In this document: piece after piece, positions 24,578-28,059 of the stretch | Layout of the letters: each line of letters opens with the position of its first letter | How positions within the stretch are numbered: the first letter of the stretch is position 1 | Assembly: GCA_021777375.1 (NCBI GenBank) | Contig: JAJYDV010000002.1 | Location: 40,949 to 104,948 of the forward strand | Origin: a bacterium | Lineage (GTDB): Bacteria; Patescibacteriota; Saccharimonadia; Saccharimonadales; UBA4665 | Direction: 5' to 3' | Length of the DNA: 64,000 nucleotides | The notes under the pieces: model-generated | Database searches by the model: none | What the model saw: the letters and a program-made list of their open reading frames with translations, nothing else | Told to the model about the DNA's origin: nothing | Program-made: the position numbers and the translations under genes

Positions 24578-26662
24578 ATGGCTAACTCTACCTATCCAAT
24601 AGATAAACTGCGTAATATCGGCATTATTGCTCATATTGACGCAGGCAAAACAACCACTACGGAAGGTATACTTTACCGTACTGGGCTTAAGCATAAGATT
24701 GGTGCCGTGCATGAAGGTGAAACTACTACTGACTGGATGGCTCAGGAGCGAGAGCGTGGGATTACTATTGTTTCTGCCGCAGTTACCTGCTATTGGAAAG
24801 AGCACCAGATTAACATAATTGACACGCCAGGGCACATTGATTTTACAGTCGAAGTTGAGCGAAGTTTACGTGTTCTAGATGGCGCGGTAGTTGTCTTTGA
24901 CGGTAAAATGGGAGTCGAAAGCCAGAGTGAAACCGTTTGGCGGCAGGCCGACAAGTACAATGTTCCCCGTATCTGTTTTATTAACAAGATTAATCAGACT
25001 GGCGGTGATTACTATAAATCTCTCGAGTCAATTCATGCACGATTAAGTAAACAGGCCTTTCCAATTCATTTGCCCATGGGCTTTGAACAAGCCGTTAATG
25101 GCGTGATTGACTTAATAAGCATGAAGGCTTACAGCTACAAGGATTTTACCGATCACGAATTAGTTGAAGGTGAAATACCAGCCGATCTAGTTGACGAAGC
25201 TAAACGTTATCGCTCATTGCTAATTGAAAACGCTGTAGCTGAATATGAGCCTATGCTTGAGAAATATCTAGAGGTAGGCGAAGAAGGAATGAGTGAAGCA
25301 GACATTCGCCAGGCGGTTAGGGTTGCTACTTTATCTGGTAAATTCTACCCTGTGACAGGCGGTGACGGCAGGGGCGTAATCGTTGAAAAGTTGCTTGATC
25401 TGGTTACCGATTTATTACCTAGCCCTAATGACCGTGGCGTAACTTGGGGGAAGCATCCAAAGACTGGCGATGAAATTGAAAGAAAGCCCGAAACTGCTGA
25501 ACCGTTTTGCGCACTGGCGTTTAAAATTGCAACTGACCCATTTGTAGGAAAATTAGCTTACTTTAGAGTTTATTCAGGGAAAATTGTTGCCGGTAGTTAT
25601 ATTTTAAATAGTTCAACTAATGAAAAAGAACGGGTTGGGCGAATTGTTCGTATGCAAGCCGATAAGCGAGAAGATCTGGCCGAAGTCAAGGCTGGAGATA
25701 TCGCCGCGATTGTTGGATTGAAGGGAACTACTACGGGTAACACCTTGTGCGACGTAAGTTATCCAATTATTCTTGAGAGCATTACCTTCCCAGAACCTCC
25801 GGTGTCAATTGCTATTGAACCGAAGACTAAAGCCGACCAGGAAAAAATGAGTTTAGCATTGCAGCGTTTAGCTGAGGAAGATCCGACTTTCCGGATTCGG
25901 GTAGATGATGAAACTGGCCAAACAATTATCTCTGGGATGGGTGAACTGCACCTAGACATTATTGTTGATCGAATGAAACGAGAATTCGGCGTAGAAGCCA
26001 ATGTTGGTCAGCCTCAGGTTGCTTATCGTGAGACGATTCGGAAAAGCGACGTCGAAGTTCAGGGCAAGTATATTCGTCAAACCGGCGGTCGAGGTCAATA
26101 CGGCGATGTATGGCTAAGATTGTCACCAAATGAGGCCGGCTCAGGATTTGAGTTCATTAACTCAATTCGCGGCGGAACAGTCCCTAGCGAGTATATCCCG
26201 GCGGTACGCAAGGGGGTTGAAGAAGCATTGTCTAACGGTGTTATTGCCGGCTATCCAGTGGTAGATATTAAGGCGGAACTTTACGACGGCAGTTATCACG
26301 ATGTTGACTCGTCAGAAATGGCTTTCTCGATTGCCGGTTCAATGGCTCTTCAAGAAGGCGTTAAACGCGCTAATCCGGTACTTCTTGAGCCTATTATGAA
26401 GTTGGTGGTCGTATGTCCGGAAAGTTTCATGGGCGATGTTATCGGAGATTTAAACTCCAAGCGCGGACGCATTGAAAGCATGGAAGATCTAGCTAATGGT
26501 GTCAAAGAGATCACCGCCTTTGTGCCCCTAGCTGAGCTATTTGGCTACACTACTAATTTGCGTTCTATGACACAGGGACGAGCTAGTTCAACGATGGAAC
26601 TGGACCGTTATATGGACGTGCCGTCAAATGTTACTGAAAGCATTATTGCTAAAAAGCGCTAG
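24578..26662 (+). CDS. fusA: Elongation factor G with altered guanine-recognition motifs
   Basis: EF-G catalyses translocation and, with RRF, ribosome recycling. The 694-residue protein is full length in all five domains. G1 ([12 protein letters not shown]), G2 (RERGITI) and G3 (DTPGH) are normal. G4 reads INKIN (residues 135-139) instead of NKxD, so the Asp that recognises the guanine ring is Asn139. The G5 segment, normally around CGSAFKNKG, reads TGGDGRG. Domain II ([20 protein letters not shown]), the domain III block [19 protein letters not shown] and domain [12 protein letters not shown] are typical. It occupies the canonical str-operon site and appears intact and functional. Confidence 0.97.
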
Positions 26663-26877: not shown

Positions 26878-28059
26878 ATGGCTACATTTGATCGCACCAA
26901 ACCACATGTGAACGTTGGCACTATGGGTCACGTTGATCACGGCAAAACAACGCTTACGGCAGCGATTACTGCTGTTTTAGCAAAGCGTTTACCGAGTAAT
27001 ATTAACAAACCAGTACCTTACGACCAGATTGATAAAGCTCCTGAAGAACGTGCTCGTGGTATTACGATAGCAACCTCGCACCAAGAGTACGAAAGTGAAA
27101 AGCGTCACTATGCTCACGTCGACATGCCCGGTCACGCTGACTACGTCAAGAATATGATTACTGGTGCTGCGCAAATAGACGGGGCAATTCTTGTTGTTAG
27201 CGCCGCTGACGGCCCAATGCCTCAGACTCGTGAACACGTGCTATTGGCTCGCCAGGTCGGCGTTCCAAGTATTCTTGTCTACATGAACAAGATGGACTTA
27301 GCTGACGCGGAACTGGTTGACCTGGTTGAAGAAGAAATCCGTGACTTGCTAGCTAAGTATGATTTTGACCGTGACTGCCCAATTATTCGTGGCTCTGCTA
27401 CAAAAGCTCTCGAAGGCGACAAGGATAGCGAAGACTCGATCATGGCTCTAGTAAAGGCTATGGATGACTATATTCCCGAACCAGTACGTAGTCTCGATAA
27501 GCCATTTTTGATGCCAATCGAGGATGTCTTCTCTATTAAGGGACGTGGAACTGTTGCAACCGGAAGGATTGAAGCCGGTGTCGTAAAGATGAATGATGAA
27601 GTAGAGATTGTCGGTATTCGCCCCACCACTAAGTCTGTAGTTACGGGTATTGAAGCCTTTAAGAAACAACTTGACGAAGGACGAGCCGGAGACAACGCCG
27701 GTATCTTACTGCGAGGCATTGAGCGTGACGACATTGAGCGCGGTCAAGTATTAGCTAAGCCCGGAACAATTACTCCGCATACTGAATTTGAAAGTGAAGT
27801 CTACATACTCACTAAGGAAGAAGGCGGTCGTCACACTCCATTCTTTAAGGGATACAAACCGCAGTTTTACTTTAGGACTACCGATGTTACAGGTGAAGTT
27901 GAACTTCCGGCTGACAAAGAAATGGTTATGCCTGGCGACACAGTTACTTTTAACGTTAAACTATTGGCACCGATTGCTATGGACCAAGGACTTCGTTTTG
28001 CGATTCGAGAAGGTGGTAGAACAGTAGGTGCTGGTGTAGTCACTAAAGTTGTTAAATAA
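26878..28059 (+). CDS. tuf: Elongation factor Tu
   Basis: EF-Tu delivers aminoacyl-tRNA to the ribosomal A site. The 393 residues show normal G1 (GHVDHGKTT), G2 (RGITI), G4 (NKMD) and G5 (GSATKAL) motifs, in clear contrast to the EF-G of the same operon. The G3 box reads DMPGHADY: the position of E. coli Cys81 is Met, which removes the thiol targeted by N-ethylmaleimide there. A strong promoter and an AAGGAG ribosome-binding site precede it. rpsJ follows after 18 bases. Confidence 0.98.

Follow-up and report, generated by a model that had tools for sequence, protein, structure and literature searches.

The elongation factor G (EF-G) encoded in the window, by which we mean the whole analysed stretch of 64,000 nucleotides, is its cell's ordinary EF-G, predicted to act as the translocase that drives the ribosome along mRNA, with a base pocket that has been coordinately rebuilt. 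We hypothesize, at a probability of roughly 0.6, that the guanine-reading aspartate has been relocated from the G4 motif to the former serine of G5, and that GTP is probably kept.

The gene (fusA, 24578-26662, forward strand, as are all features below) encodes 694 amino acids and was identified from its open reading frame and translation, TIGR00484 and the EFG_IV domain. TIGR00484 matches residues 5-693 with 1011.5 bits (cut-off 659.4), a full-length, five-domain match. The G1/P-loop region (residues 17-28, 24626-24661) is canonical, G2 (RGITI) and G3 (DTPGH) are intact in the alignment, and domains II-V are ordinary. An AlphaFold2 model built from a 50-sequence alignment has a pLDDT of 84.7 overall, with about 92 in the block of G4 and 87 in that of G5; its closest solved folds are canonical EF-Gs, e.g. 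3zzu_A (TM 0.88/0.94). In the window's genome (723,950 bases, 97.9% complete) EFG_IV is found in this one protein only, and the domain is single-copy in the variant-class genomes examined. A preliminary description of the window had named this the only EF-G in the str operon, with G1-G3 and domains II-V normal; the former now extends to the genome, where a second canonical EF-G is ruled out, and the latter is borne out by the intact motifs and by a TIGR00484 score far above the cut-off. A pseudogene was rejected.

Canonical bacterial EF-G (TIGR00484; Thermus thermophilus 1dar, Staphylococcus aureus 3zzu) shares the architecture, G1-G3, domains II-V and the position in the str operon with the variant, and canonical CPR EF-Gs are 57-62% identical to it. 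The differences lie in the G4 exchange of Asp for Asn, the G5 exchange of Ser for Asp, a loop one residue shorter, a fixed Arg and the covarying surroundings of the pocket. Where translocases of this family read NKxD at G4 and GSA[LF]xNxG at G5, the window protein reads NKIN and GGDG-RG. The altered G4 segment NKINQTGGD (residues 136-144, 24983-25009), seen in alignments and in a pattern scan of the phylum, has Asn139 (codon AAT, 24992-24994) where NKxD has its guanine-reading Asp. The altered G5 loop VTGGDGRG (residues 259-266, 25352-25375), which in alignments lacks one residue of its canonical counterpart, carries Asp263 (codon GAC, 25364-25366) at the canonical Ser position and Arg265 (codon AGG, 25370-25372). 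Both are invariant in the variant class; canonical EF-Gs have S/T/A and K/R/Q/A, respectively. Behind Asp263, which replaces the canonical Ser, Gly usually stands for Ala, the Leu that comes next is missing, and Arg265 is fixed. The model places a strand at 257-262, a loop at 263-268 and a helix at 269-279, and since the strand stops right before Asp263, this residue occupies the place of the canonical Ser. The G4 Asn and Lys that frame the base (N136, K137) are retained. G5 is not lost; another loop, GD-x-R, strongly conserved and shorter by one residue, has taken its place.

These readings agree with the preliminary description as to NKIN, the AAT codon and VTGGDGRG. Its conclusion that both guanine-recognition loops are lost holds for the G4 Asp and was overstated otherwise, given the retained N136 and K137 and the new Asp of G5. 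A sequencing error at 24992 is ruled out, as the same motif occurs in relatives and throughout the phylum scan described below. A nearby Asp probably does replace the motif, from the G5 loop. The Asp of TGGD downstream of G4 was rejected for this role, because most canonical EF-Gs have an Asp there too.

The exact NKINQxGGD codon pattern was found in 98 of 380 genomes drawn evenly across the phylum, including 37 of 37 from the window's class; the reversed control pattern gave no hit in the listed genomes. NKINQ together with GGDGR is present in every Saccharibacteria EF-G fetched (relatives and 80 loci from a species-level genome collection), down to about 66% identity. Other families have NK[IL]NL with GGD[GSTNA]R, so that the variant class is larger than the scan count. 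The alignment of CPR EF-Gs at G4 and G5 that had been proposed with the preliminary description thus finds the variant in all sampled Saccharibacteria and beyond. Many ultra-small CPR bacteria, every Saccharibacterium checked included, have the variant as their sole EF-G. NKxD is present in each non-CPR EF-G of the set, from Pseudomonadota, Bacillota, Campylobacterota and other groups. Two 'Nomurabacteria' EF-Gs (L037, L068) are of the Saccharibacteria NKIN type at 73-74% identity, and one 'Nitrospirae' EF-G (L055) groups with Peregrinibacteria; all three probably come from mislabelled bins. No published description of the variant was found in the literature searched, which covers few subscription journals.

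The two loops change together. Among about 195 distinct EF-Gs in which both loops are readable, G5 is G-Asp-x-Arg with one residue deleted in 107 of 107 with Asn at G4, and G[STA][AS]xxN in 88 of 88 with NKxD; the sequences are related, so that a Fisher value on these counts is no true probability. All of 50 diverse variant EF-Gs share N136, K137, N139, G262, D263 and R265. These six invariant residues indicate, at the level of sequence, that the pocket is under strong constraint and is not drifting. The columns that best separate the classes are 139, 140, 263, 266, 268 and 261, followed by 192, 171, 173, 111, 34, 110, 264 and 270. All strong ones lie in the G domain: in G4 and G5, at residues 30/34, at 110/111 (Lys110-Met111 in the loop after G3, 24905-24910) and in part of the G' subdomain (residues 164-195, 25067-25162; covarying positions 171, 173, 190, 192 and 195). 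The first column beyond the G domain is residue 648, and it is weak (0.39). Residues 164-195 of G' co-vary with the base pocket, although in known EF-Gs this subdomain is turned towards the L7/L12 stalk.

In canonical EF-G the G4 Asp holds N1-H and N2-H of guanine, and in GTPases the G5 Ser braces this Asp. Since Asp263 sits where that Ser would be, we read the change as an exchange, from Asp...Ser to Asn...Asp. In the variant, with the pair exchanged to Asn139 at G4 and Asp263 at the G5 Ser position, Asp263 would accept the N1/N2 hydrogens of guanine, oriented by Asn139 and Arg265. GTP would still be read specifically, but from the side of G5, and translocation would otherwise follow its normal cycle. 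We infer both that Asp263 touches the base and that this base is guanine. That the base is still read is suggested by the invariance of the pocket residues, whereas drift would leave variable ones. Relocation is favoured because, in guanine-binding proteins that lack NKxD, N1/N2 are often contacted by a different Asp or Glu: in 298 guanine complexes, a D/E outside the NKxD motif takes these hydrogens in 20.5% (PMC11594714). By analogy with other proteins, two points count against relocation. D-to-N in G4 alone shifts other GTPases to XTP, and Era and SpoIVA favour ATP once the G4 Asp is gone and G5 has gained an acid (both PMC7952092), though there the acid lies two residues further on, in the column of the invariant Arg.

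The latter point leads to the main rival, which we regard as unlikely: the pocket may have switched or widened to ATP, with Asn139 donating to adenine N1 and Asp263 accepting from N6, so that translocation would be driven by ATP or by either purine. SpoIVA, a TRAFAC ATPase derived from Era, has likewise lost the G4 Asp and gained an acid in G5, and both SpoIVA and engineered Era with these changes prefer ATP over GTP (PMC7952092). SpoIVA is another protein with another function, however, and it has also lost the G4 Lys and shows a drifting, poorly constrained G4 position, whereas here the Lys is kept (K137 is invariant) and the Asn is invariant too; its acid lies at Ser+2, a column in which the variant EF-G has an invariant Arg. 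YchF/OLA1, also a ribosome-linked P-loop protein with an altered G4, reads ATP with NxxE (PMC8779481), but has Glu and not Asn in G4 and is no translocase. A 2025 survey reported that CPR bacteria encode fewer GTPases and suggested a lower dependence on GTP (PMC12641178), which may speak for ATP and yet is compatible with either reading. EF-Tu retains its GTP motifs, which argues against ATP. Similarly doubtful is the broader proposal that a patchy large part of the CPR, all sampled Saccharibacteria included, translocates on ATP or on both purines, its re-specified G domain having spread as a module.

The remaining explanations appear less probable still. The package may tune the exchange rate, the contacts of G' with L7/L12 or regulation such as alarmone sensitivity, with base choice secondary; the co-variation of G' positions 164-195 with the pocket fits this improbable reading, while the base-reading columns separate the classes most strongly and RelA/SpoT shows no evident association with the variant. 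A move of specificity to another oxopurine is very improbable: XTP and ITP are scarce in cells, and an invariant Asp and Arg in G5 would not be explained by a lone D-to-N change. The precedent for it is that this change turns Ras-type GTPases to xanthine (PMC7952092); the engineered EF-Tu D138N, Ras D119N and FtsY carry the identical G4 substitution, but these single mutants were made in the laboratory and lack the paired change in G5. Decay of base selection through relaxed constraint or genome reduction, without functional meaning, is largely refuted. CPR genomes are indeed reduced; against decay stand the perfect co-variation of the loops, the invariance of the residues, the presence of the variant in all Saccharibacteria sampled and the NKxD kept by canonical CPR EF-Gs in equally small genomes. 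The preliminary description had left the choice between rebuilt base selection and relaxed stringency: rebuilding is strongly supported by the clade-wide, exceptionless swap and the invariant N139, D263 and R265, and these speak against relaxation. EF-G II (EF-G-2) paralogues likewise form a divergent EF-G lineage, but they keep NKxD and gSAx and relax G2 (PMC3150367); the window EF-G does the reverse and is the sole EF-G. An EF-G II paralogue was ruled out on its single copy, intact RGITI and lost NKxD.

Other GTPases of the cell are normal. EF-Tu (tuf, 26878-28059), an internal control next to fusA, has NKMD, as the preliminary description had said, and also GSATKA. Across variant genomes EF-Tu keeps NKxD and GSA, from which we take it that these cells still use GTP. 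LepA (NKID), IF2 (TKID) and Der (NKID) of the window's genome, together with EF-Tu, rule out a cell-wide loss of guanine motifs; its YchF has the usual NxxE. RelA/SpoT is found in both EF-G classes without evident association with the variant, and a link to (p)ppGpp was dropped on this ground. Guanylate kinase is patchy in both classes and does not track the variant. The genome of the window has a Pfam guanylate kinase match, and such a match is absent from 35 of 52 CPR genomes, the majority with a completeness of 90% or more. Obg (G000:C10:32201-33490, L306) has NKVE in G4, a conservative D/E change in a second ribosome-linked GTPase; NKxE is frequent in Obg of the window's genus (relatives L307-L334), and some other relatives in the family or order have NKID.

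Guanine recognition is commonly identified by NKxD as its fingerprint, and EF-G is among the most conserved proteins of life. Here, a natural and fixed alternative occurs in the sole EF-G of many bacteria, showing that a core translation factor can have its guanine lock re-cut as a package. Either cells with the variant have a new way of reading guanine, or they may power the ribosome with a different nucleotide. The variant EF-G is thus a natural experiment on the evolution of base specificity, and it makes testable whether any cell drives translocation with a nucleotide other than GTP. For oral and environmental Saccharibacteria it also provides a lineage marker as well as a distinct pocket, and it calls for caution with annotation rules based on NKxD.

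The history of the variant was followed in trees from quick searches, in which deep branches have weak support and the trees of short domains disagree among themselves. On the RNA-polymerase tree the variant is patchy, with 9 state changes by parsimony, at least 6 of which are forced on well-supported branches; on EF-G trees the number is 4 to 11, varying with the rows and columns used. A quick tree of the whole protein minus the pocket columns rejected a single vertical origin (p-AU 0.013). For the G domain minus the pocket columns, a single clade of all variant EF-Gs is not rejected (p-AU 0.21), but the polymerase tree strongly is; domains II-III (p 0.03), IV-V (p 0.0007) and II-V (p about 0.0003) reject such a clade. 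As a lead, this suggests transfer between CPR lineages of the G domain, or of whole genes with later recombination, or else constraints that extend past the removed columns. The data suggest, and do not prove, that the pocket package moved as a module. The rpoC matches of some CPR genomes (G063, G147, G087, G053) cross in-frame stop codons, possibly representing alignment ends or split genes.
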